Source: Paucibacter sp. KBW04 (GTDB lineage: Bacteria; Pseudomonadota; Gammaproteobacteria; Burkholderiales; Burkholderiaceae_C). From it: a stretch of 64,000 nt of DNA. The stretch spans positions 571,987-635,986 of the forward strand of contig NZ_QAJN01000001.1 in assembly GCF_003852425.1 (NCBI RefSeq), in the 5' to 3' direction. The notes under the pieces are model-generated. The model did not search any database and had not been told where the DNA came from. It was given only the letters and a program-made list of their open reading frames with translations. This document shows positions 30,138 to 45,034 of this stretch, piece after piece (the stretch's first letter is position 1; each line of letters begins with the position of its first letter). The position numbers were made by a program, and so were the translations under genes.

Positions 30138-30182
30138 ACAGCGGCGCCGCTCGCCTCCCTAACCGAATCCTGATTGCATCCC

Positions 30183-33110
30183 ATGGCTACAGCCTCAAAG
30201 AAGACCAGCGCGACACCCAAGGCCGCGCCCAAGAAAGTTGCCGCAAAAAAAGCGGCCTCTGTGAAGAGCAGCAAGCCCGAGGCTGTGCTTGAAGCGCAGC
30301 CCGTCAAGCCTGCGGCAAAAGCTACGGTGAAGGCTGCGGTGAAGGCTGCGGCCAAGAAGGTCGCCGCCAAGGCAGAGCACAAGGCTCAACCCAAAGCGCC
30401 TGCGGCCAAAAAGGCCAAGGTCGAGAAGCCCGCTGCTGCCGTCGAGGTCAAGGCGACTCCCGCAAAGAAGGCGAAAGCGGCGGCCAAGCCCGTCGTTCAG
30501 CCTGCTGAAGTGATTCAGCCAGTGGCCGCAGCCAAGCCGGCCAAGGCAGCGTCCAAGGCAGCGCCCAAGGCTAAGGCTGCCGCCAAAGCAGAGGCAAAGC
30601 CCGAGGCCAAGCCAAAGAAGGCGGCGGCCAAAGCCGTGGCTGAACCTGCGCCCCAGCCTGTCGCGAAGTCCGCCGCGAAGCCGGTTGCGAAACCCGTGGC
30701 AAAGACTGCCGCGAAGACGTCGACAAAGAGCGCTGGCGCGGCCAAGAAAGCCCTGGAAGAAGCCTCCAAGCGCGCGTTGACGTCGAGCGAGCGCGTGGTG
30801 GAAGCAGCGCCCAAAGTTGCGCCCAAAGCTGCAGCGAAAGCCCTAGCCAAAGCCGAGCCTGCCAAGCCTGCAAAAAAGCCCAAGGTCAGCAAAGCCGTTG
30901 AAGCGGCACAGCCTGTTGTGCCGCCGCCGACTCAAGTCGAAGCGAAGCCTGCCAAGCCGACTCAAGCAAAGGTTAAGGCCTCGCCCGCGCCGAGCAAGCC
31001 GGCTAAGGCTGCAGCCCCTGCACCCGCCGCCGCTGTTCAGGCAAAGCCAGCCCCGGCCCCGGCGTCCGTGCTTGCGGCCGAACCGCCTCGTTTCCGTTTG
31101 CAAGCGCAGACTGCCGGCGCGGTGCTGGGCGAGTACCGGGTGAGCGAGATTGATGAAGCCGGTGCGAGCTGGCGCGTGCAGGTGCTGGGCGCCCAGGCCA
31201 TCGATTGCCGTTGCAACTGCGCGGCCTTTCCGCTCAGCGACCGTGGCAGCTGCGAGCACATCGCCTTCGCCCTGGCTCAGCTGCTGAGCCAGCCGAGTGC
31301 GGCCGAGGCCTTGCGCCGTGGCCCGCAGTTTGATTACAGCGAAGTCTTGCTGCGCTTTGGCGCTCGCCGCCAACTGCGCTGGCGCCAAGGCCATGGCTGC
31401 CCTTCGGTCGTGGCCGAGGCTGCCCAGGCCCTGACCGACGAGTCCGGCCGCTTGCGCGCCGAGGCGCCGGGTGCCCTGGCTCATCTGCTGCAAGTGGCGG
31501 CCGCGGCCGGCCATGAGCTGCGGGTAGAGGAGGGCGTGTGGCCGCTGCTGGCTCACAAGCGCGATGCCGGCCAGCGCGTGCTGCGTCTGGAGCAAAACTA
31601 TCCGCAAGGCCTGGAAACGCCGGCGCTGCGCAATCTGCTCAAGCTGCCCCTGCCCATGTTCCAGCTGGAGGCGGCCTTGTTCGCCGTCAGCGCCGGCCGC
31701 AGCCTGCTGGCCGATGATCTGGGCCTGGGTTTGTATGCCCAAGCCCTGGGTGCCAGCGAGCTCTTCATGCGCCATTTCGGCGTCGAGCGGGTCTTGCTGC
31801 TGTGCGCCGAGTCGGCCCAGAGTCGTTGGCTGGCCGAGGCTCAGACCTTGAGTGGGCGCGCGGCGCAGATGGTCTGGGGCGATGCGCAAGCTCGTGCCGA
31901 GCAACTGGCCGATGGCCAGGCGCAGATCAAGATCTGCGCCAGCTCGGCCCTTGCTCAGGACTTGAGCCAGCTGCAGTCTTTTGCGCCCGAGCTGATCATC
32001 GTGGACGAGGCCGGTCGTTTGGACGCGCAGGCCCTGGCTGCCTTGAAGGTCTTGGAAGCCGCTCGTCCCGAACAAGGCTTTTTGCTGCTGCTGAGCGGCC
32101 AGATCTTGAGCGGCCAGCCCAAGGTCTTGCTGCCCTTGGTGGAGTTGCTGGATCAGCAGCGCAGCGGCCCTTACGCGCGCTTCCTGAGCTATCACGCCAG
32201 GCGCGATGCCGCCGGTCAGATCCAGGGCTTTGTGGGCCTGGATGCCTTGGACCAAACCCTGGAGCGACTGATGTTCAGCCGCAGCAAGGCCGAGTTGAGC
32301 CCTGTGCTGCCGCCCGCCCTGGTGCAGCTGCGCAGCGTGAGCCTGAGCCAGACGCAGCAAACGCTGCAGGCGAGGGCGCTGGCTGATCTGCGCCGTGGGG
32401 TGCAGCGCTGGGAGCGCAGCGACTATGTGTCGGACGCCGAGCAGCTGGCCTTGGCCCGCGCCGTGCAAAGCCTGCGCCGCCTGGCCATCAGCCCGCAGCT
32501 GATGGCGGCAGCGAGCGATGCGCCAGGCGATGCGGCAGGCGAGGTGCAGGCCGATGCGCCCAAGCTGGCGGCGGTGGCGGCAGTGTCGCGCGAGCTGCTG
32601 GGCTCGGCCGTGCAACGCCTGGTGGTGTTCTGCCAGTGGGACGACGCGCTGAGCCTGTTGGCCGCCCGCCTGCAGTCCCAGGGCTTCAAGTTCATGCAGC
32701 TGAGTGCTAACCAAGGTCTGGCCGAACGCCAGGCGCTGGCTCGCCGTTGGCGCGAAGACGAGCGGGTGCAGCTGCTGCTGATCAGCGATGCCGCTGCCGC
32801 CGGCCTGCAGCTCATCAATGAAGGCTCGGAGGCCAACCTGGGCCTGATCAATCTGGAGCTGCCTTGGAGCGAAGAGCTGCTGGGTCGTCGCCTGTCCGCC
32901 TTATGTGAGGAGAGCACGCGTGGTCTGCCGCTGATTCAGCTGCAAGCCCAACAAGGCCTGGAGCAGGCCATGTTGCAGGCCATGGATGTTTTGCCCGAGC
33001 TGCCCAAGTCCTGCCTGGATGGTGATGCCAGCCTGCAACTGCTGCAGGGCGAGGACCTGAGCGCCTGGATGCGGGCCCTGGCCCTGCTGTGCAGCCTGCT
33101 GCCGAAGTAA
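30183..33110 (+). CDS. Lysine/alanine-rich protein with SWIM finger and degenerate SNF2 helicase core
   Basis: A 975-residue protein in three parts. Residues 1-305 are an Ala/Lys/Pro-rich, histone H1-like disordered tail. Residues about 340-362 form a SWIM zinc finger (DCRCNCAAFPLSDRGSCEHI: CxC...CxH). The rest follows the SNF2/SWI2 layout, but its ATPase motifs are broken. The Walker A region reads SLLADDLGLGLYAQAL (about 505-521), where active enzymes have GLGKT. Motif II reads IIVDEAGRLD (about 603-612) instead of DEAH/DEAQ. Motif III has lost TGTP, and motif VI has lost its Arg pair. The C-terminal RecA-like lobe (LVVFCQWDDALSLLAARLQSQ to about 930) is otherwise intact. Likely a DNA- or chromatin-binding protein without ATPase activity. 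It follows pabBC by 45 bases. Confidence 0.78.
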   Translation: MATASKKTSATPKAAPKKVAAKKAASVKSSKPEAVLEAQPVKPAAKATVKAAVKAAAKKVAAKAEHKAQPKAPAAKKAKVEKPAAAVEVKATPAKKAKAAAKPVVQPAEVIQPVAAAKPAKAASKAAPKAKAAAKAEAKPEAKPKKAAAKAVAEPAPQPVAKSAAKPVAKPVAKTAAKTSTKSAGAAKKALEEASKRALTSSERVVEAAPKVAPKAAAKALAKAEPAKPAKKPKVSKAVEAAQPVVPPPTQVEAKPAKPTQAKVKASPAPSKPAKAAAPAPAAAVQAKPAPAPASVLAAEPPRFRLQAQTAGAVLGEYRVSEIDEAGASWRVQVLGAQAIDCRCNCAAFPLSDRGSCEHIAFALAQLLSQPSAAEALRRGPQFDYSEVLLRFGARRQLRWRQGHGCPSVVAEAAQALTDESGRLRAEAPGALAHLLQVAAAAGHELRVEEGVWPLLAHKRDAGQRVLRLEQNYPQGLETPALRNLLKLPLPMFQLEAALFAVSAGRSLLADDLGLGLYAQALGASELFMRHFGVERVLLLCAESAQSRWLAEAQTLSGRAAQMVWGDAQARAEQLADGQAQIKICASSALAQDLSQLQSFAPELIIVDEAGRLDAQALAALKVLEAARPEQGFLLLLSGQILSGQPKVLLPLVELLDQQRSGPYARFLSYHARRDAAGQIQGFVGLDALDQTLERLMFSRSKAELSPVLPPALVQLRSVSLSQTQQTLQARALADLRRGVQRWERSDYVSDAEQLALARAVQSLRRLAISPQLMAAASDAPGDAAGEVQADAPKLAAVAAVSRELLGSAVQRLVVFCQWDDALSLLAARLQSQGFKFMQLSANQGLAERQALARRWREDERVQLLLISDAAAAGLQLINEGSEANLGLINLELPWSEELLGRRLSALCEESTRGLPLIQLQAQQGLEQAMLQAMDVLPELPKSCLDGDASLQLLQGEDLSAWMRALALLCSLLPK

Positions 33111-36656: not shown

Positions 36657-38093
36657 ATGACAGAACAAGAGCTAGGTGCAGACTCGCTGGAGTCCGAGCT
36701 GCGCTTTGAAGACTATTTCCGCGAAGGATCCGCCCCCACCGAGGCCTTGCTGTGGTGGCAGTTGGAGCGCAACGAGGCCTTGCTGAACGCCATGCGGGCT
36801 CTGTGCCACGGGCCGGCGGCCCTGGTGCGCCTGCGGGTCTGGATCTTTATGGAAGTGATGGCCATGCCGGCCTCGCGCATCAGCCGCGAGACCCTGAACC
36901 AGCATTTCCACATCCTGCGCGACGAGGCCCTGGAACTGGTGCTCAAGCGCCTGCGCGAGGCCGAGCTGCTGGCCTGGGACGGCTCCAACCAGCAATACGG
37001 CGTCACGCCCCTGGCCCAACAGCTGCTGGGCGTCTTGCAGCCCCTGGTGACCAGCACGGTGCAGGATGCCGACCTGAGCGCCTTGCTGGCCAATGTGGCC
37101 GGCGCCCATCAGCTGGGCACCCTGGACCCGGCCCAGCTGCAACATCTGCAAGCCCAGCTCTCGCGCCTGTACGACGAGTTTGCCGATGCAATCGCCAGCG
37201 GCTCGGAGTTTCACTTGCGCCGTGCCCGCCAGCGTTTTGGCCGCGCCCTGAGCCTGGTGGAAAAAGCCAGCGAGGCCCTGTCGGCCATCATGGTGCAGGC
37301 CCAGGAGCAGGGCAATGCCAAGCTGGAGCGCCTGGCCCGCGAGCTTGGCCTGGCCCAGGCTCGTTTGCTGGCCATGGCCAGCCAGTTCAACCGCGCCCTG
37401 CAGCAGGCCGATCGCCAGCGCGTCACCCTGGGCTCGACAGGCATCACCACCACCGATGTGCGGCGCTGGCTGCAGAACGTGCCGTTCTTGGAGAACCTCA
37501 GCCTGGGCGCTTTGTCCCGACCCATTCATCCGATTTTTGTGGCCCAGCATGAGTTGCTGGACACCACCGAGGCCGAGTTCGAGCGTGACCGTCCGGCGCC
37601 CAAGGAAGCCGAGGCCCTGCCTTCCGCCAAGGCCGCCGCACCGGGCGAGCTGGCCGTCATGAGCTTGCCGCCCGAGATGGGGCTGATGCAGGCCTTGCTG
37701 GCCCGCTGGACCGAGGCCGGCGAGATCGAGCAAGACCTGGCACCCGCCGTGTTGGGCGGCAGCTATGCCCGCGCCTCTTACCGCGCCCAGCTGCTGCCTC
37801 TGCTGGGCGACGCCCAAGCTCAACATTTGAGCGGGGCCACCGGCGATATGGCCCGCCAGCCCTGGCGGGTGCAGTGGTCGGCCGAGCAGGGCGAGGTCGA
37901 TGATGAACACATCGCCTGGATGAGCAAGGGCGTTTTGCGCAGCACCGATGCGCCGCCCAGGGAGCCTGAGGGCGATCCCTTCTCAGCCGAGGTGAGGATG
38001 TCGGAGCCCGACGAAGCACCCAAGCCCGAACGAGTCAAGAAAACAAGAACGCCCAAGCCCAAAGAAGTCGAAGCTAAGGAAGTCAAAGAATGA
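36657..38093 (+). CDS. Kleisin-like subunit of a condensin-type complex (MukF/MksF/JetA-like)
   Basis: A 478-residue, mainly helical protein. The N-terminal 110 residues look like a winged-helix domain (SRISRETLNQHFHILRDEAL, then LREAELLAWDGSNQQYGVT). A long helical middle follows (about 130-290, with heptad-like SEALSAIMVQAQEQGNAKLE), then a possible second winged helix (about 335-400), and a charged Lys/Glu tail. Length, domain layout and gene order before a KITE-like and an SMC-like gene match MksF/JetA kleisins. No direct motif proves this, so the call rests mostly on context. Its stop overlaps the next start by 4 bases (ATGA). Confidence 0.65.
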   Translation: MTEQELGADSLESELRFEDYFREGSAPTEALLWWQLERNEALLNAMRALCHGPAALVRLRVWIFMEVMAMPASRISRETLNQHFHILRDEALELVLKRLREAELLAWDGSNQQYGVTPLAQQLLGVLQPLVTSTVQDADLSALLANVAGAHQLGTLDPAQLQHLQAQLSRLYDEFADAIASGSEFHLRRARQRFGRALSLVEKASEALSAIMVQAQEQGNAKLERLARELGLAQARLLAMASQFNRALQQADRQRVTLGSTGITTTDVRRWLQNVPFLENLSLGALSRPIHPIFVAQHELLDTTEAEFERDRPAPKEAEALPSAKAAAPGELAVMSLPPEMGLMQALLARWTEAGEIEQDLAPAVLGGSYARASYRAQLLPLLGDAQAQHLSGATGDMARQPWRVQWSAEQGEVDDEHIAWMSKGVLRSTDAPPREPEGDPFSAEVRMSEPDEAPKPERVKKTRTPKPKEVEAKEVKE

Positions 38094-38860
38094 GCGCTGC
38101 TCTGGACGATGCCGCCGCACTGGCGGCGCAATTGTTGGCGCGCCGCTGGCTGCCCCGCAACCACCCCCTGGTGCGCCGCGCCCTGATCGATACCGATGTC
38201 TGGACGGCCTTGGGCGAGCGCCTCTCGGCCGTGGGCCTGCGGGTCATCGACAACCTCTACGCCGACCACATCAGCCTGGCCATGTTGCGCCCGGCTGAGG
38301 CCGCCGTGTTTGGCGAGACCGGCCTGGCCGCCAATAACAATCTGGACCTGCCGCGCGACGGCGTGGCCTTGCTGGTGGTGCTGTGGTCCCTGATCGTTTT
38401 ACCCAAGCGCCAGCGCCAGGTGGCGCGGGCCGAGGCCAAGGAAGAAGGCCAGGGTGAGTTCTTCGCCACCGACAAACCCGTGCCCCTGGCCAGCAGCGTC
38501 AGCCCCACCATCTCTTACCGCAGCCTCTTGGCCGACTTTGGCAATCAGCTGGGCAAGAAGATGCGTCTGGACTCCAACCTCAAGCTCTTGGAGCGCAACG
38601 GCTTCATCACCCGGCGTGGTGAAGACATTGCCGAAGGCCCTTTGCTGGACCTGCTGCTGGACTACGACACCCTGGCCCCACGCATCTTGGACGGTGCCCT
38701 GGGCGATGTGCTGGAGCGCAGCAGCGACCCGCAGGCTGCGCCCCTGATCGCCAAGATGCGCCAGCCCGAGCTGCTGCCGCCCGAGGAGGAAGAAGAAGAG
38801 CCGCTGCCCAGCCTGGCCCCCGCCATCCAAAAGCAACAACAAGACGACAGCCCCATCTGA
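38090..38860 (+). CDS. KITE-like accessory subunit of a condensin-type complex (MukE/MksE/JetB-like)
   Basis: A 256-residue protein with two probable winged-helix units: residues about 15-100 (NHPLVRRALIDTDVWTALGE, then VALLVVLWSLIVL) and about 150-215 (SYRSLLADFGNQLGKKMRLD, then LLERNGFITRRGEDIAEGPL). An acidic run (PPEEEEEEPLPS) lies near the end. Tandem winged helices of about 230-260 residues encoded between a kleisin and an SMC gene are characteristic of MksE/JetB. It is coupled to the gene before by a 4-base overlap and to the SMC gene by a 3-base gap. Confidence 0.65.
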   Translation: MSAALDDAAALAAQLLARRWLPRNHPLVRRALIDTDVWTALGERLSAVGLRVIDNLYADHISLAMLRPAEAAVFGETGLAANNNLDLPRDGVALLVVLWSLIVLPKRQRQVARAEAKEEGQGEFFATDKPVPLASSVSPTISYRSLLADFGNQLGKKMRLDSNLKLLERNGFITRRGEDIAEGPLLDLLLDYDTLAPRILDGALGDVLERSSDPQAAPLIAKMRQPELLPPEEEEEEPLPSLAPAIQKQQQDDSPI

Positions 38861-38863
38861 GCC

Positions 38864-41683
38864 ATGTTCCATCTTCAATCTCTAGAACTGCTGCATTGGG
38901 ACTACTGCCAGCGCGTCACCATGCCGCTGGACGGCGCCATCATCACCATCGCCGGCCCCAATGGCTCGGGCAAGACCACCTTGCTGGACGCGATGCGCAC
39001 CTTGCTGGGCCTGGAATGCTCGGGCGGCCGCACCTACAAGACCTATGCCCGCCACGCCAATGCCGAGACCGCCTGGCTGCGCGCCTTGGTGGACAACCGC
39101 CCGCGCGGCCGGCAGAACAGCTCGCGGCCTTTTGCCAGCTCCCTGCTTTATGCCGATCAGGTGACCCTGGTCTGCCGCATCGAGCGCCATGGCGGGGACT
39201 GGCAGCGCCGCTATCTGATGCTGGATGGCGTGCACGAGGTCGAGGCCATCGCCGCCCGTGGCGAGAAGGACTGGATGGGCATTGAGGCCTGGCGCCGCCG
39301 CCTGGAGGCGGCGGGACTGACCCGCGCCATTGGCCGCGTGCTAGCGCTTGAGCAGGGCCAGACCGACCGCCTGTGCGAGCTCTCACCGCGCGAGTTGCTG
39401 CGCCTCGTGTTTGAAGTGTTTGGCGACCAGGAGGTGCTGGACCGTTACGACCAGGCCCGCAGCCATCAGCAGCATCTGCTCAAAGAAGTGGAGCAGGCCG
39501 CGCACGAGCTCTCGCACACCCAGGCTCAGCTCTCCGACCTGGCCAACCGCGTCACCAGCTACCAGCAATACCAGCTGCGCCTGCGCGAGCGCGAGCGCCT
39601 GGCCACCGAGGTGGTGCCGGTGCTGCAATGGAGCGAGTCGCGCGCCCGCACGGCGCAGGGCCTGCGCGATCTGCACAGGCAGCGCCTGTTTGCGCGGGCC
39701 GACGAGCGCAGCTTGAGCGAGCGCCGTGCCGCGCTGCACAAGCTGTTTGAAAGCTCGGAGCAGGCCAAGAAGCGCCTAGCCGAGATCGAGCAAGAGCGCA
39801 AGCAGACCCGCGCCGCCTTCGACGCCGCCCGCGAGGCCGAGCGGCCCATGGAACTGCTGGCCAAGCGCGAGGAAGAGCTGCGCGCCCTGGCCGCTGTGGA
39901 GGCCGATGCCCAGGAGCTGGCCCAGCGCATGGAGGACCTGAGCGGCCGTCAGCACGCCTTGCGCGAAAGCTTTACCCGCGCCAATGACCAGAGCAAAAAG
40001 GCTCAGACCGCGCTGGAGGGTTTGAGTGGCCAACGCTTGCCGCCGCCCCCCGTCGAGGTGACGCGCTTCCGCCGCGCTCTGGACGACGCGGGCATTCATC
40101 ACCATGTCTTGGCCGATTGCATAGACATTGCCGATGAGAGCTGGCGCGCTGCCGCCGAAGGCATGTTGCGCCCCTCGCGCTGGGTGGTGGTGCTGGAGCA
40201 TGCCAAGGACGAAGCCCATGCCTTTGCCCTGGCCTCGCGCGAGCGCTACCGCCACTATGTGGTGGCCGAGGGTGAGCAGGCGCCCGCGCAGGTGCCGCAG
40301 GATTCTTTGCTGGCCGCGCTCAAGATCAATGCCAAGCTGCCCGCTTGGCTCTTACGCCAGCTGGGTGGCATACGCCGGGTCAAGGACACCGAGGCCGGGG
40401 CCAAGGCGGGGGGCGAGTGGATCACCCCCGACGCCTACTACCGCGATGCTCGCGGCGGCCGCAGCCTGTGGGTGGAGCCGCGTGACTTCCAATTTGGTGT
40501 GTCGGCGCTCGAATCGCGCCGCAAGGCCTTGGAGAGCGAGCTGGCCCGTTACGACGGCGAGCTGACCCGCTTGGCCAAGGAGCAGGCCGAGGTCGAGCGC
40601 CAGCTCAAGGACGCACAACGTGCCGCCCAAGGCCATAAGGCCGCGCAAGAGCTGGGGGAGAGGGCGGACGAATTCGCCGCCTGCCGCCAGCGCCTGCCCG
40701 CGCTCAAGCAAGCGCGTATCGAGGCCTCCAGTCGCATGACAGCGCTGGAAGGCGAGCATGACCGTGCGCTCACCCAGCACACCCGCAGCGAGCGCGATTA
40801 CGAGGCGGCCCAAGCCTCACTCAAGGCCAGCGAAGACAATGTCTCGCGCACCCAGCGCGAGCATGGCAGCCGTTATGCCGATCTGGTGCAGGCTGCAAAA
40901 GCATCCCGTGAGGCGCGTGCCGCCTTCCCGGCGAATTGGGTGTTAGCCAGCACGCTGCAAGCCTTGCGCGATGAGTTTGAAAACGCCAAACAGGCCGAGA
41001 TCGCCAGCCGTCATGTGCAGGCCGAGCTGGACAACGGCGTATGGGAAACCGACCCGCAAGTGCAGGATCGCCATGCCCGCATGAGCGTGGCCGTGCTGGA
41101 GCAAAGCGCCCAGCTGGAAGACCGCCGCGCCAGCAATGAGATGGCCCGCATAGCAGCATTCAATGCCCGCGAGCGTTACATCGACGTGCTGCGTGCCACC
41201 GTGCGCCGCTACAAAAAGAATGTGCAGGAGCTGGGCGAGCTGGCCGGGGTGATCGCCGTGGCCGAGCTGCCCCATCTGGACAACGACGATATGGTCTTGG
41301 CCCAGGCGGGCCTGCAGGTCAAGTTCAACTTCGACGGCAAGGGCGAGGTGGGCCTGAACGACGGCGAGGCCTCGGGCGGCCAGCAGGTCTTGAAGAGCCT
41401 GATCCTCTTGGTGGGCTTGATGAAGGACGACGACAGCGCCGGCGGCTTCGTCTTCATCGACGAGCCTTTTGCCCATTTGGACGTGCGCAATATTCAGCTG
41501 GTGGGCCATTTCCTGCGCTCCACCCGCGCCCAGTATTTGCTGACCACGCCCATCACCCATAACGTCGAGGTGTTTGAGCCTTCCGAGATCACCTTGGTCA
41601 CCAGCAAGAAGGCGCGTGGTGAGCGCTGGGCGCCGCCCATTGCGGTGTTGGCGCGTCGGGCCGAGAAGTCGGTTTACGACTAA
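38864..41683 (+). CDS. SMC-type chromosome condensation ATPase (MukB/MksB/JetC-like)
   Basis: A 939-residue SMC protein. N-terminal head: FHLQSLELLHWDYCQRVTMP then Walker A GPNGSGKTT (31-39, Lys37). Two long coiled-coil arms flank a hinge-like globular region (about 395-520, VLADCIDIADESWRAAAEGM, RPSRWVVVLEHAKDEAHAF). C-terminal head: signature EASGGQQVLKSL (Ser837-Gly838-Gly839) and Walker B FVFIDEPFAHLD (Asp866, Glu867). It is shorter than canonical Smc (about 1150) and MukB (about 1480), but in the range of MksB. With the two genes before it, it should form a loop-extruding complex for chromosome organisation or plasmid exclusion. No JetD/MksG nuclease gene is adjacent. Confidence 0.88.
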   Translation: MFHLQSLELLHWDYCQRVTMPLDGAIITIAGPNGSGKTTLLDAMRTLLGLECSGGRTYKTYARHANAETAWLRALVDNRPRGRQNSSRPFASSLLYADQVTLVCRIERHGGDWQRRYLMLDGVHEVEAIAARGEKDWMGIEAWRRRLEAAGLTRAIGRVLALEQGQTDRLCELSPRELLRLVFEVFGDQEVLDRYDQARSHQQHLLKEVEQAAHELSHTQAQLSDLANRVTSYQQYQLRLRERERLATEVVPVLQWSESRARTAQGLRDLHRQRLFARADERSLSERRAALHKLFESSEQAKKRLAEIEQERKQTRAAFDAAREAERPMELLAKREEELRALAAVEADAQELAQRMEDLSGRQHALRESFTRANDQSKKAQTALEGLSGQRLPPPPVEVTRFRRALDDAGIHHHVLADCIDIADESWRAAAEGMLRPSRWVVVLEHAKDEAHAFALASRERYRHYVVAEGEQAPAQVPQDSLLAALKINAKLPAWLLRQLGGIRRVKDTEAGAKAGGEWITPDAYYRDARGGRSLWVEPRDFQFGVSALESRRKALESELARYDGELTRLAKEQAEVERQLKDAQRAAQGHKAAQELGERADEFAACRQRLPALKQARIEASSRMTALEGEHDRALTQHTRSERDYEAAQASLKASEDNVSRTQREHGSRYADLVQAAKASREARAAFPANWVLASTLQALRDEFENAKQAEIASRHVQAELDNGVWETDPQVQDRHARMSVAVLEQSAQLEDRRASNEMARIAAFNARERYIDVLRATVRRYKKNVQELGELAGVIAVAELPHLDNDDMVLAQAGLQVKFNFDGKGEVGLNDGEASGGQQVLKSLILLVGLMKDDDSAGGFVFIDEPFAHLDVRNIQLVGHFLRSTRAQYLLTTPITHNVEVFEPSEITLVTSKKARGERWAPPIAVLARRAEKSVYD

Positions 41684-41692
41684 TTCCTAACG

Positions 41693-42388
41693 ATGTCCCG
41701 CGCTGCCCGCCTGCTGGAGCTTCTGCAAGTGCTGCGGCGCCACCGCCAGCCGGTGGCCGGTGCGGCGCTGGCCCAGCAGCTGGGCATCAGCCTGCGCACG
41801 CTGTACCGCGACATCGCCAGTCTGCAAGCGCAAGGCGCAGCCATCGAGGGCGAGGCCGGCCTGGGCTATGTGCTCAAGCCCGGCTTTGTGCTGCCGCCGC
41901 TGATGTTCACGGCGGAGGAGCTGGAGGCCTTGGTTTTGGGTTCGCGCTGGGTGATCAAGCGCGGCAAGGACGCCCGCCTGGCCGAGGCCGCAGGCCGCGC
42001 GCTGGACAAGATCTCCGCCGTGCTGCCCGCCGAAGCCAGGCATCAGCTGGAAAGCCATGCCCTGCTGGTTGGGCCGGCCAAGGAGGTGGCGGAAAGCCCA
42101 TGGCTGGCCCGCCTGCGGGCGGCCATACGCGATGAGCAGATCCTTCAGCTCACTTACCTCGACCTCAAGGGCCAGCTCAGCCAGCGCCGCATCTGGCCCT
42201 TTGCCCTGGGTTATTTTGACCAGGTGGAGTTGGTGGTGGCCTGGTGCGAGCAGCGCCAGGCAGTGCGCAACTTCCGCGTCGATCACATCCAGGGCTTGCT
42301 CGATACCGGCCAGCGCTACCCGCGGCCACGCCAGGCTTTGCTGAAAGAATGGAAGGCGCAAGAGAAGATCGCTGCTGCCAGAAATTGA
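41693..42388 (+). CDS. YafY-type HTH/WYL transcriptional regulator
   Basis: A 231-residue DeoR-like regulator. Residues about 5-60 form a helix-turn-helix (RAARLLELLQVLRRHRQPVA, then LAQQLGISLRTLYRDIASLQ), followed by GLGYVLKPGFVLPPLMFTAEELEALVLG. A WYL ligand-binding domain spans about 135-205. The canonical WYL tripeptide is not preserved as such (LTYLDLKGQ at its place). It starts 9 bases after the SMC stop, so it is at least partly co-transcribed with the condensin-like genes, but YafY regulators are also often paired with VOC proteins like the next gene. Confidence 0.88.
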   Translation: MSRAARLLELLQVLRRHRQPVAGAALAQQLGISLRTLYRDIASLQAQGAAIEGEAGLGYVLKPGFVLPPLMFTAEELEALVLGSRWVIKRGKDARLAEAAGRALDKISAVLPAEARHQLESHALLVGPAKEVAESPWLARLRAAIRDEQILQLTYLDLKGQLSQRRIWPFALGYFDQVELVVAWCEQRQAVRNFRVDHIQGLLDTGQRYPRPRQALLKEWKAQEKIAAARN

Positions 42389-42440
42389 CACTGCCCCTGT
42401 TTACGCTGAAGGCCTTCTCCAAACGAAAGGACTTCACACC

Positions 42441-42827
42441 ATGAAGACAGCACTGCAGCCCAATTTCATGCTCTTTTACGTGGCTAGCCCCAGCGAGAGC
42501 GCTGCTTTCTACGCCCGCATCCTGGGACGCGAGCCAGTCGAGGCCTCACCCGGCTTCGCCTTGTTTGTCTTGGACTCCGGCCTCAAGCTGGGCCTGTGGG
42601 CGCGCGGCGGTGTCGAACCCGCCGTCGAAGGCCTGCCTCAGCATGCCAGTGGCGAGCTGGCTTTTGCCGTCCCCGATGTGGCGGCGGTGCAGGCCGCGCA
42701 TCAGGCCTGGTTGGGCCTGGGAATTCCCATGCTGCAAGCGCCCACGCAGATGGACTTTGGCTTCACCTTCACCGCGAGTGACCCGGACGGCCATCGCCTG
42801 CGGGTCTTCACGCCGCAGGGCGATTGA
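42441..42827 (+). CDS. VOC superfamily (glyoxalase/bleomycin-resistance fold) protein
   Basis: A 128-residue two-module VOC protein: [20 protein letters not shown] in the first beta-alpha-beta unit and [20 protein letters not shown] in the second. The DPDGHRLRV ending is the usual metal-side motif, with His and an acidic residue as potential ligands; substrate unknown. A ribosome-binding site (GAAAGGA) precedes the ATG. It follows a YafY-type regulator, a common pairing that suggests induction by the compound it handles. Confidence 0.87.
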
Positions 42828-42880
42828 GCGCGAGTCCTCCGTACTCGGGGATTGTCTTGGTCACAAGGAGGGAGCGAGCC

Positions 42881-43435
42881 ATGACTCTATTGAACAGCCG
42901 GGCGGCTCAGCCAGAGCCCACGTGGATGGGCAATGAATGCCTGCCGGGCTTTGAACCCGGCGAGGCCGATCTGAATGCAGCGAGCATAGGCAGCAAGGTG
43001 ACGGCCACCAGACATTGGTTGGCCGTGGCCTGCGCCGAGCATGTGCGGCGAGGTCGTTCAGAGGGCTTTATGCAGGTCTGCCACGGCAAGGCAGCCCCCT
43101 TGCGGCGCCTGCGGCCTGGGGATCGCGTGGTCTATTACTCGCCCAGCCTGCGCATGGGGGGCAGCGATGGTCTCAAGGCCTTCACGGCCTTGGGCGTGGT
43201 CTTGGCGCGTCCGCCCTATGTTTTCGATATGGGAGGGGGATTCACCCCCTTCCGTCGGGACGTGGCTTGGTGTTCGACGCGCGAGACCCCCATCACACCG
43301 CTTTTGCAGGCATTGGAGTTAAGCGCTGGTAAAAAGAATTGGGGCTATCCGCTGCGACTGGGTCTGCTTGAAATCAGTGCGCACGATATGGCTGTGATCG
43401 CTCAAGCCATGGAAGTGAGCTTGGCAAAAGACTAA
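42881..43435 (+). CDS. EVE domain-containing protein
   Basis: A 184-residue protein with a PUA-like EVE domain: [35 protein letters not shown], and [23 protein letters not shown] domains bind modified nucleic acid bases and are found in modification-dependent restriction and RNA-related proteins, as well as alone. The start at 42881 has a strong AGGAGGGAG just upstream; an in-frame TTG at 42824 overlapping the VOC stop is less likely. Function of stand-alone proteins of this subgroup is unknown. Confidence 0.85.
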
Positions 43436-43450
43436 AGAGTGCCGCCAGCT

Positions 43451-44209
43451 TCAGTTCCGCGCATGGGTGACCCGGTACTCGGCAACGCCGGGGATTTCGG
43501 TCACCCGGCTGGCGAAGCGGGTCAGAGTCTCGCCGCCGAAATTGCGGCGGGCGGTGCAGACAAAACGCCATTCCTCGCAGCCGTCCTGCAGTTGAATGCT
43601 CAGCGAACCCGGGGCGAAGCGAAAGCCCAGGTCGTGGGTGAACTTGGCCAACTCGGCCTGCCTGAAGTGCCGCTGCGGCTGGCCGCGCAGCATCACGGCG
43701 ATGGCGGGGTGAGAGGGCAGGTGGGCCTCTAGCTTGGCGCCCCACATCATCAGGCTGGCGCACAACAGGGTCAGCATGATGGCGGCGAAGTAAAAGCCCA
43801 TGCCCAAGAGGATGCCGATGGAGGAGGCGGCCCAGAGTGAGGCGGCGGTGGTCAGGCCGCTGATATTCATGCCCTCCTTCATGATCACGCCGGCGCACAA
43901 AAAGCCGATGCCGGTGACCACGCCCTGGATCACCCGTGTGGGGTCGGAGACGGCCAGGGGCAGATTGCCAGGATTGATGCCGCCGTACCACTGGTGGGGG
44001 TAGGCCAGCAAGATGATGACGCCGGTGGAGGCCATGCAGACCAGGGCATAGGTGCGCATGCCGGCGGCGCGGCCGTGGTAGGCCCGCTCATAGCCCAGCA
44101 CCAGGCCCAGGATCATGGCGCCCAGCAGATGGAAGAGCATCAGGATATTAGTCTGCCATTGCTCGGCGCTCCAGTAACGCAGCAGGTGGTCGAGGTCGAG
44201 CAGATTCAT
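43451..44209 (-). CDS. MgtC/SapB family membrane protein
   Basis: A 252-residue protein with four to five N-terminal transmembrane helices bearing the family core LGLVLGYERAYHGRAAGMRTYALV and VVTGIGFLCAGVIMKEG...LTTAASLWAASSIGILLGMG, broken here to keep short. A cytoplasmic ACT-like C-terminal domain of about 90 residues follows (LSIQLQDGCEEWRFVCTARR). MgtC proteins are implicated in growth at low magnesium, in acid and in host cells, by inhibiting the F-type ATPase in Salmonella. No Mg transporter or regulator is adjacent. It is convergent with the EVE gene (15 bases between stops). Confidence 0.9.
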   Translation of the reverse strand: MNLLDLDHLLRYWSAEQWQTNILMLFHLLGAMILGLVLGYERAYHGRAAGMRTYALVCMASTGVIILLAYPHQWYGGINPGNLPLAVSDPTRVIQGVVTGIGFLCAGVIMKEGMNISGLTTAASLWAASSIGILLGMGFYFAAIMLTLLCASLMMWGAKLEAHLPSHPAIAVMLRGQPQRHFRQAELAKFTHDLGFRFAPGSLSIQLQDGCEEWRFVCTARRNFGGETLTRFASRVTEIPGVAEYRVTHARN

Positions 44210-44265
44210 GAGCGGCTCCGGCAGGCAATGCGCTCATGCTAAGCGTCAGTGCAGGCGCAGCAGAC

Positions 44266-44294
44266 GAAAAAAATGGCTCCAAAAGGAGCCATTT
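44266..44294 (-). terminator. Rho-independent terminator of the FKBP gene
   Basis: Read on the minus strand, AAATGGCTCC and GGAGCCATTT form a 10-bp stem with a 4-base loop and run into eight T. It lies 18 bases past the FKBP stop. Confidence 0.9.
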
Positions 44295-44311
44295 ATCGCT
44301 CAAGCTGAGGC

Positions 44312-45034
44312 TTAAACGGCCAGCAGATCCACCTCAAACAAAAGCGTGGCATTGGGCGGGATCACGCCGCCCGCGCCGCGGGCGCCATAGCCCAGCTCGG
44401 CCGGGATGACCAGCATGCGGGTGCCGCCGACCTTCATGCCTTGCACGCCCAGGTCCCAGCCCTGGATCACTTCGCCTTCGCCCAGGCCGAAGCGGAAGGG
44501 GTCGCCACGGTCCTTGCTGGAGTCGAACTTCTTGCCGCGTGCGCCGTCCTTGTAGAGCCAGCCGGTGTAGTGCACGGTGACGCGCTGGCCGGCCTTGGCC
44601 TCGGCGCCTTCGCCCAGCTTGGTGTCTTCCAGCTGCAGGCCGCTGTCCAGCGTCGTCAGGTTCAGGGTGATGGGCTCATTGCCGCCGCTCACGCCCAGCA
44701 GTTCCACTTCAAAAATCAAGGTGGCATTGGGCGGGATGACGCCACCGGCGCCGCGCGCGCCATAGCCCAGCTCGGGCGGGATCACCAGGGTGCGCGAGCC
44801 GCCGATCTTCATGCCTTGCACGCCTTCGTCCCAGCCGCGGATGACCATGCCGCCGTCCAGCTCGAAGTTGAAGGGCTGCTTGCGGTCCTTGCTGGAGTCG
44901 AATTTGGCGCCCTTGACACCGTCTTTATAGAGCCAGCCGGTGTAGTGCACGCTGACGTCATGGCCGGACTTGGCCTCTTTGCCGTCGCCGACCACGGTGT
45001 CTTCAAATTGCAGGCCGCTGGGGCTGGTGTTCAT
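44312..45034 (-). CDS. Peptidyl-prolyl cis-trans isomerase with two tandem FKBP domains
   Basis: A 240-residue cytoplasmic protein built from two FKBP domains joined by a linker of about 12 residues. Domain 1 (about 5-115) and domain 2 (about 128-240) share the same landmarks: SVHYTGWLYKDG / TVHYTGWLYKDG, FDSSKDR in both, VIRGWDEGVQGMKIGG / VIQGWDLGVQGMKVGG, and GYGARGAGGVIPPNATL identical in both. Related bacteria usually carry a single-domain FKBP of about 115 residues, so this is an internal duplication. Both active sites look complete. It has no signal peptide. The start at 45034 is the only Met giving a full first domain. Confidence 0.92.
   Translation of the reverse strand: MNTSPSGLQFEDTVVGDGKEAKSGHDVSVHYTGWLYKDGVKGAKFDSSKDRKQPFNFELDGGMVIRGWDEGVQGMKIGGSRTLVIPPELGYGARGAGGVIPPNATLIFEVELLGVSGGNEPITLNLTTLDSGLQLEDTKLGEGAEAKAGQRVTVHYTGWLYKDGARGKKFDSSKDRGDPFRFGLGEGEVIQGWDLGVQGMKVGGTRMLVIPAELGYGARGAGGVIPPNATLLFEVDLLAV

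Follow-up and report, generated by a model that had tools for sequence, protein, structure and literature searches.

A compact kleisin-KITE-SMC operon without jetD and its probable place in the Wadjet/MksBEF group

The window, which is the whole stretch of 64,000 nucleotides analysed here, encodes a compact three-gene operon that very probably belongs to the Wadjet/MksBEF group but has no JetD. The JetC-type hinge of its SMC protein, the predicted folds of its two accessory proteins and the order of the genes agree with the original prediction of a divergent branch of the MksBEF/Wadjet family. JetD, the Wadjet effector, was looked for and was absent; therefore, the operon itself is not classed as Wadjet. 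The accessory proteins are not significantly recognized by Pfam or PADLOC models, as befits a divergent, Burkholderiales-centred branch of the group. The operon probably represents a Wadjet motor that repeatedly lost its cutter and is kept for chromosome organization in the manner of MksBEF, and we infer the chromosomal role and loop extrusion. The analysis suggests a defence device turned chromosome organizer. It adds to the group a compact SMC branch (about 940 aa), whose kleisin and KITE proteins were missed by the defence-finding models tried.

Operon organization and affiliation of its proteins

The three genes are co-directional and tightly packed (Table 1). The kleisin and KITE genes share a 4-nt ATGA overlap, and 3 nt separate KITE from SMC; the ORF coordinates thus agree with the original prediction of three genes joined in this way. 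A species-level genome collection yielded 206 stretches encoding a relative, of which the best 80 were kept, corresponding to 78 distinct loci. Among these, 77 of 78 retain the kleisin-KITE-SMC order on one strand, and in the remaining one (L070) the contig stops within the locus. Because order and strand are kept so widely, the arrangement is not a matter of chance. The 4-nt kleisin/KITE overlap recurs in 61/77 related loci when starts are chosen mechanically, and the KITE-SMC spacing lies between −8 and +12 nt in 76/77; the L060 kleisin is truncated by a contig end. The closest named relative among the best 80 of the 206 loci is that of Roseateles oligotrophus (L048; SMC, 98%). In L106, L107 and L109, a gene for a GNAT acetyltransferase interrupts the operon between KITE and SMC (assigned by Pfam in L107), and in L104, where it was assigned by eye, it does so between kleisin and KITE; its overlaps or gaps with the adjoining genes are short.

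Table 1. Features of the operon and its downstream region in window coordinates.
Feature	Position	Strand	Details
Kleisin gene (JetA/MksF/MukF type)	36657..38093	+	478 aa; fold search MukF, JetA
KITE gene (JetB/MksE type)	38090..38860	+	256 aa; fold search JetB
SMC ATPase gene (JetC/MksB type)	38864..41683	+	939 aa; hhalign JetC profile, E 6e-32
Walker A GPNGSGKTT, SMC residues 31-39	38954..38980	+
SMC hinge region, JetC-like, residues about 386-576	40019..40591	+	hinge alignments
ABC signature ASGGQQ, SMC residues 836-841	41369..41386	+
Walker B FIDEPFAHLD, SMC residues 864-873	41453..41482	+	TTP farther on, at H-switch position
3 kb downstream, site of jetD in many relatives	41684..44683	+	no JetD, no detectable remnant
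HTH/WYL regulator	41693-42388		next gene after SMC

The complete SMC head that had been predicted is indeed present. Walker A, signature and Walker B motifs were found in the window protein and in all family SMCs of at least 900 aa (76/76, the window SMC counted), with P or Q permitted after the first G of GPNGSGKTT. In hhalign, where every E-value quoted is that of one pairwise comparison, 876 columns of the SMC profile could be aligned with a JetC profile (E 6e-32), and seven single JetCs matched the SMC profile at whole length with E 1.6e-6 to 5e-14. A single Smc reached E 7e-9 over 200 columns and thereby beat four of the seven single JetCs; therefore, whole-length scores alone are not decisive. 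MukB, SbcC and RecN (one sequence each) aligned with only 19-55 head columns (E 8e-6, 2e-6 and 0.0013, respectively).

The middle of the protein, which had been described as hinge-like, aligned at residues 386-576 with the hinge regions of three JetC profiles (E 4e-9, 7e-14 and 5e-13). The single MukB, Smc, SbcC and RecN sequences, the 924-aa Mks-like SMC of L190 and the Miltoncostaea protein gave no clear match to it (E 0.009 or worse; MukB 0.009, L190 0.06, RecN 0.37 and SbcC 0.45, one sequence each). Since profiles against single sequences make an unequal contest, hinges of 17 single JetCs were added as controls. Nine of these matched at E ≤ 2.5e-7, 11 at E ≤ 1e-4, and 15 were ahead of the best non-JetC; of the six that did not reach 1e-4, four lay at 0.0008-0.007 and two (0.04 and 0.06) fell behind MukB. 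The nine best-matching hinges come from the L180-L189 set, two kleisins of which are typed as DUF5716 JetA. The sequence comparisons therefore point to a JetC affinity of the hinge, strongest to the DUF5716-associated branch, rather than to the one MukB or to L190. At the H-switch position of the alignment the family has TTP; a proline is also found in Jet, Muk and Miltoncostaea proteins, whereas Smc, SbcC and RecN have SH/TH.

The head phylogeny envisaged at the outset groups the family but does not place it. In the head-segment tree the family forms one clade (97/96), and the order in which SbcC, L190 and a JetC-MukB group join this clade stays open. An AU test did not reject a single clade of the family with Jet, Muk, Mks and Miltoncostaea proteins (p 0.149), which establishes no clade. 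A RecN/Rad50/SbcC-type repair ATPase with unrelated neighbours, which the original prediction had named as the alternative, is scarcely credible: the head motifs are common to all coiled-coil ABC ATPases, the head tree leaves SbcC in a neighbouring fork and Rad50 is the best PDB sequence match (E 3e-5; with the profile 4.5e-6, JetC 3e-4), but at the hinge JetC gives a match whereas the single SbcC and RecN do not, the H-switch is of the Jet/Muk kind, and genes for predicted KITE and kleisin folds lie alongside, with JetD in relatives. Plain Smc-ScpAB was also rejected. It has the same SMC/kleisin/KITE composition, but the SMC protein scores 46 bits on TIGR02168 (SMC_prok_B) against a cut-off of 567, and the genome encodes a separate canonical Smc.

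The accessory proteins had been noted to carry almost no obvious family motifs, and no model of Pfam, NCBIfam or PADLOC matched them significantly. The kleisin gave no significant match, and the KITE protein gave sub-threshold matches only (Pfam DUF4194, E 0.0085; JetB, 0.012). AlphaFold2 models were calculated from 27-row alignments, with mean pLDDT values of 75 (kleisin) and 70 (KITE). The kleisin model consists of an N-terminal winged helix (residues about 54-116), a helical bundle (118-258), a low-confidence linker and a C-terminal winged-helix-like domain (339-429). The KITE model is predicted to contain tandem winged helices followed by a low-confidence C-terminal tail.

In Foldseek searches with the kleisin model, MukF ranked first and chains of JetABC entries, taken as JetA by their length, ranked second and fifth; these E-values were 0.009-0.03 (0.02-0.03 for the JetABC chains), none below 0.001. 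In VIA-align, chains of MukF/MukBEF entries filled the first eight places, with Z from 12.6 to 11.2 and an rmsd of 11-30 Å. The top MukF superimposed over 195 residues (Z 12.6, rmsd 11.4), and a 7nz2 chain over 279 residues across 48-431 (Z 11.2, rmsd 29.8). The margin is narrow, with a designed helical toroid at Z 10.5 against 12.6 for MukF. For the KITE model, JetB-sized chains of JetABC entries were the top matches (VIA, Z 10.5 and 10.4), the best of them with a Foldseek E of 1.9e-4 and 172 residues at an rmsd of 4.3 Å. MAGE/Nse1/Nse3, MukE and ScpB chains followed in the Foldseek list. Here too the margin is narrow, with MarR proteins, each matching with one winged helix, from Z 9.5 downward against 10.5 for JetB.

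Profile-profile comparison, which had been recommended for both accessory proteins, gave only weak matches (kleisin to JetA, E 0.007; KITE to JetB, E 0.002), and broader family profiles weakened them further (0.05-0.4 and 0.006-0.3, respectively). A PDB sequence search with the KITE profile found nothing, and a match of the kleisin profile to Cas1 (E 0.09) was dismissed as chance. Therefore, the putative kleisin and KITE proteins are identified by their predicted folds, whose confidence is middling, together with gene order and size; winged-helix and kleisin folds were found in both searches, in favour of MukF/JetA and JetB. Taken with the hinge result, the original prediction withstood the refuting condition set for it.

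Among known systems, Wadjet (JetABCD/MksBEFG/EptABCD) resembles the family in its kleisin-KITE-SMC(-nuclease) order, its JetB-like KITE fold, its JetC-type hinge, which is closest to DUF5716-associated JetC, and the JetD Toprim nuclease of many relatives. The family differs in that the window copy is without JetD, the family JetDs form their own clade, the SMC proteins have about 921-947 aa compared with about 1100-1230 aa in the JetCs compared, and JetA models give no match and JetB models only sub-threshold ones. MksBEF of Pseudomonas aeruginosa is a condensin without a nuclease, and it is likened to the operon by description: three genes, no nuclease, alongside Smc-ScpAB. In contrast, the hinge of the 924-aa protein of L190 does not match the family (E 0.06); we labelled this protein Mks-like from its size and operon. 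It is encoded at L190:5769-8543 downstream of KITE- and kleisin-sized ORFs, has an odd P-loop (GENNKGKTS) and ASNGT replacing the signature, and has no PADLOC match at E ≤ 1e-5. Escherichia coli MukBEF shares the MukF-like kleisin fold, the nuclease-free three-gene operon and the proline of the H-switch; E. coli is not known to have Smc-ScpAB, to which one genus of the family (g13, see below) provides a parallel. MukB, however, has 1486 aa, only 46 of its head columns align, and the hinge gives E 0.009 with the one MukB sequence used.

JetD-less members of the Wadjet group are already known as a kind. A wide survey counts MukBEF and several other group members among those without JetD and describes MksB proteins above 890 aa (PMC7617805), and that survey may already include this branch. 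PMC12153180 regards the resemblance between MukBEF/MksBEF and SMC as convergent, a view that we do not adopt. Further literature on the group includes PMC10512200, PMC10123090 and PMC7485682. A literature search, conducted mostly without subscription papers and including Wadjet in combination with Burkholderiales, found neither this branch nor jetD losses within a family.

Distribution of the family and of jetD

The KITE profile detected the family in 49/300 genomes from the order to which the window belongs, representing 27/140 genera with the window's genome counted; the nine other listed genomes of its own family were all negative (0/9). The class sample contained two positives in 370 (the window's genome and G615), and the phylum sample one in 100 (the window's genome). 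The suggestion that the branch is specific to Burkholderiales is therefore nearly right, but G615 lies outside the order, as does a distant actinobacterial relative. The SMC profile, for which at most three candidates were scored per genome, found no full relative in the class sample besides the window's genome, which is a weak negative. Matches to query residues 320-568 in three ORFs of 1225-1248 aa were rejected as JetC hinges, with DUF4194 in the same genomes and places. When 12 genomes were searched again with all candidates scored, only G164, already counted as positive, and the window's genome came up. Phage records contained no relative; in viral contigs, two short peptides gave 71 pattern matches, and no relative was among them.

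A compact distant relative is encoded on an 816-kb replicon of Miltoncostaea oceani (L168:5333-9151) by overlapping genes for proteins of 374, 182 and 718 aa. It matched the kleisin profile at E 1.6e-6, the SMC profile at 1e-13 and the KITE profile only at 0.003, with no JetC-type hinge match and no annotated nuclease adjoining.

The prediction of a three-gene operon holds for the window; many relatives have a fourth gene, jetD, which that prediction, made without relatives to compare, could not reveal. An ORF of about 390-425 aa follows SMC in 5 of the first 20 loci fetched from the G-numbered genomes, including that of G615 (L114), and carries the motifs VENRTSFE, DPDPAGI (DPHPAGI in L100) and GEQEG. 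JetD1 was the best PADLOC match in 6/6 of those tried (best E 3.9e-16, L103). Pfam matches exceeded the cut-off in two of three, namely DUF2399 in L111 and DUF2399 with JetD_C ('Wadjet protein JetD') in L219, and L103 gave nothing. The family profile matched the JetD profile at E 2.5e-10 (hhalign). Among 22 of these proteins, the Toprim Glu motif is present in 22/22, D-x-D in 21/22 (in L100 a His stands in place of the second Asp) and EQE in 21/22, L037 being cut by a contig end. On these sequence criteria, the fourth gene encodes a JetD-type Toprim nuclease.

By HMM search of the best 80 of the 206 loci, jetD lies directly 3′ of SMC in 17/75 assessable loci and is absent from 58; a call of absence needed at least 1.4 kb downstream, so that L006, L049 and L066 were not assessable. 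At the level of 50 KITE-positive genomes, JetD (E ≤ 1e-5) was detected in 11, in ten adjoining SMC (one contig-cut) and in one as a stump. The other 39, including the window's genome, gave no match at this threshold. In the window's genome, 37/58 candidates were scored for JetD at E ≤ 1e-5, and DUF3375 and DUF4194 gave no match at E ≤ 0.001. The 3 kb after its SMC gene contain neither JetD nor a remnant.

Selection, genomic setting and proposed function

Pairwise comparison of the window with five nuclease-less relatives gave dN/dS values of 0.034-0.108 for SMC, 0.113-0.166 for kleisin and 0.105-0.207 for KITE, and nuclease-less pairs overall ranged from 0.01 to 0.21. The nuclease-less operons are thus under strong purifying selection. 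The SMC values of three JetD-positive pairs (0.041-0.117) fall in the same range. Low dN/dS without jetD indicates that the motor has been retained for a reason independent of JetD.

Of 55 Roseateles-type loci, defined by an SMC identity of at least 68% and 5 kb available before kleisin, 34 also contain a homologue of the window's cold-shock/DUF1294 gene; it is a fairly stable chromosomal setting. Elsewhere in the window (30174-33110), a 978-aa protein has an SNF2-related domain (Pfam) fused to a long N-terminal part, which in our reading is Lys/Ala/Pro-rich and histone-H1-like.

Many relatives have housekeeping surroundings. Forty-nine loci were fetched for this count, which leaves out the window's genome and L211 (contig too short); ObgE, ProB-like, RlmL-like and GNAT domains were confirmed by Pfam. 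In 31/48 assessable G loci, a co-directional obgE gene precedes the operon at a distance of 26 to 5748 nt: in 29/37 loci without jetD compared with 2/11 with jetD or a stump. Fisher's p of 5e-4 for this association is overstated because the obgE loci sit in one 32-row SMC branch, 29 rows of which are without jetD, and the JetD and ObgE counts are phylogenetically non-independent. In the lineage to which the window itself belongs, the operon has a site other than obgE.

ScpA was found in 48/50 KITE-positive genomes and in 19/20 negatives. Genus g13 (G004 and G298) gave no ScpA match, and scoring 41 of the 61-62 candidates revealed no Smc at E ≤ 1e-15. Both genomes, G004 as one contig and G298 as about 50 contigs, were scored 100% complete, and both keep the complex in nuclease-less form at obgE (L107 and L225). 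In G053, of a sister genus, Smc scored 1003 bits.

By homology, the SMC protein would dimerize through its JetC-type hinge and bind ATP with its heads, which a MukF/JetA-like kleisin would bridge together with a JetB-like KITE protein. The complex would load onto DNA and extrude loops, driven by ATP. The lineage probably started as a four-gene plasmid-sensing nuclease system (JetABCD), and the branch of the window, which keeps the motor without jetD, would perform a nuclease-independent job. This job would most likely be chromosome organization or segregation beside Smc-ScpAB, as in P. aeruginosa MksBEF. We regard chromosome organization as most likely because the motor is conserved without the nuclease, the surroundings in many relatives are of the housekeeping kind, and g13 is without Smc-ScpAB matches. 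The patchy spread (49/300; 0/9 in the own family) argues against a chromosomal role, since it resembles the pattern of a defence system more than that of a core condensin.

The same patchiness would suit a nuclease-less complex that still acts on plasmids or other extrachromosomal DNA by compaction, silencing or a nuclease in trans. Smc5/6 acts in the first two ways on viral DNA. SMC is constrained to a similar degree in JetD-positive and nuclease-less pairs, so that its DNA target could have stayed as it was, and the Wadjet core is treated as a DNA-shape sensor in PMC10586767. We nevertheless consider this reading unlikely: no partner of the JetD, DUF3375 or DUF4194 kind was detected in the window's genome within the thresholds given above, obgE stands upstream of most jetD-less loci, and g13 keeps the complex without an Smc or ScpA match.

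Repeated change at the jetD site

The presence of jetD switches at least 10 times on the 125-row SMC tree by a quick method, and nine times on 99 rows; L073, whose SMC lies in two frames, and short rows were left out of the trees. No assessable row of the 38-row branch that contains the window has JetD. The change is visible inside a single protein family, whose sister loci can be nearly identical and yet differ in the possession of jetD; therefore, a chromosomal role of the bare motor can be tested between close relatives. In L022 and L023, both flanks are 95% identical, and the distance from the SMC end to the next common block is 1223 nt with jetD (L022) versus 22 nt (L023); at 1.9 kb farther on, the two loci differ once more, by about 1.3 kb that has nothing to do with jetD. 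The flanks of L071 and L060 are 94-95% identical, with junctions of 1354 versus 71 nt. In both pairs the junctions differ by jetD alone. Two further pairs are less clean: in L063/L058, other sequence replaces jetD in L058, and in the second of them L115 has a stump. This stump of jetD, of about 45-51 codons, immediately follows SMC in L115 (G164) and is the only convincing remnant in 77 downstream regions (the window counted twice); two other matches (E 0.04-0.08) were taken as noise.

A 100/100 branch sets the JetDs of the family apart from 11 JetDs of other Wadjet systems. The deep splits of their tree track the SMC tree, with small differences within Roseateles and one clear conflict in Herbaspirillum (L071/L075 against L065/L075). 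Because the family JetDs cohere and agree with the SMC tree in their deep splits, we favour, from these sequence comparisons, an ancestral four-gene system with repeated loss of jetD. Repeated change, clean sister loci and one stump are observed, and we infer loss as the general direction. In genus g83 (L219, L214 and L222), jetD lies about 190 nt after SMC, nested in the nuclease-less obgE branch; its JetDs are deep-branching within the family set, and this genus may have regained the gene.

The opposite course, in which a three-gene condensin acquired jetD as an add-on on many occasions, would also produce at least 10 changes, which may run in either direction, and could account for the Herbaspirillum conflict and the nested g83 genes. 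It appears quite improbable, since the JetDs group together with deep splits that follow the SMC tree, and the L115 stump marks a loss at that locus.

Starting from loss of jetD, one may go a step further and suppose that the Wadjet lineage was domesticated repeatedly to a housekeeping condensin, with jetD shed, one nuclease-less branch of Burkholderiales fixed beside obgE and Smc-ScpAB replaced in at least one genus. We put this forward tentatively, as possible but not the likelier course. MukBEF took over from Smc-ScpAB as the chromosomal condensin in enterobacteria.

Loss of jetD might instead have left a remainder on its way out, of which the L115 stump and partial copies on two Variovorax megaplasmids could be signs. 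Such decay is very improbable, given that the motifs are intact in 76/76 SMCs, dN/dS is low in the nuclease-less pairs and a whole branch around the window persists without JetD in its assessable rows. One of the partial copies, on plasmid 2 of Variovorax sp. WDL1 (L169), is situated between IS66 and IS1071 elements, and the second is carried by NZ_LR594663.
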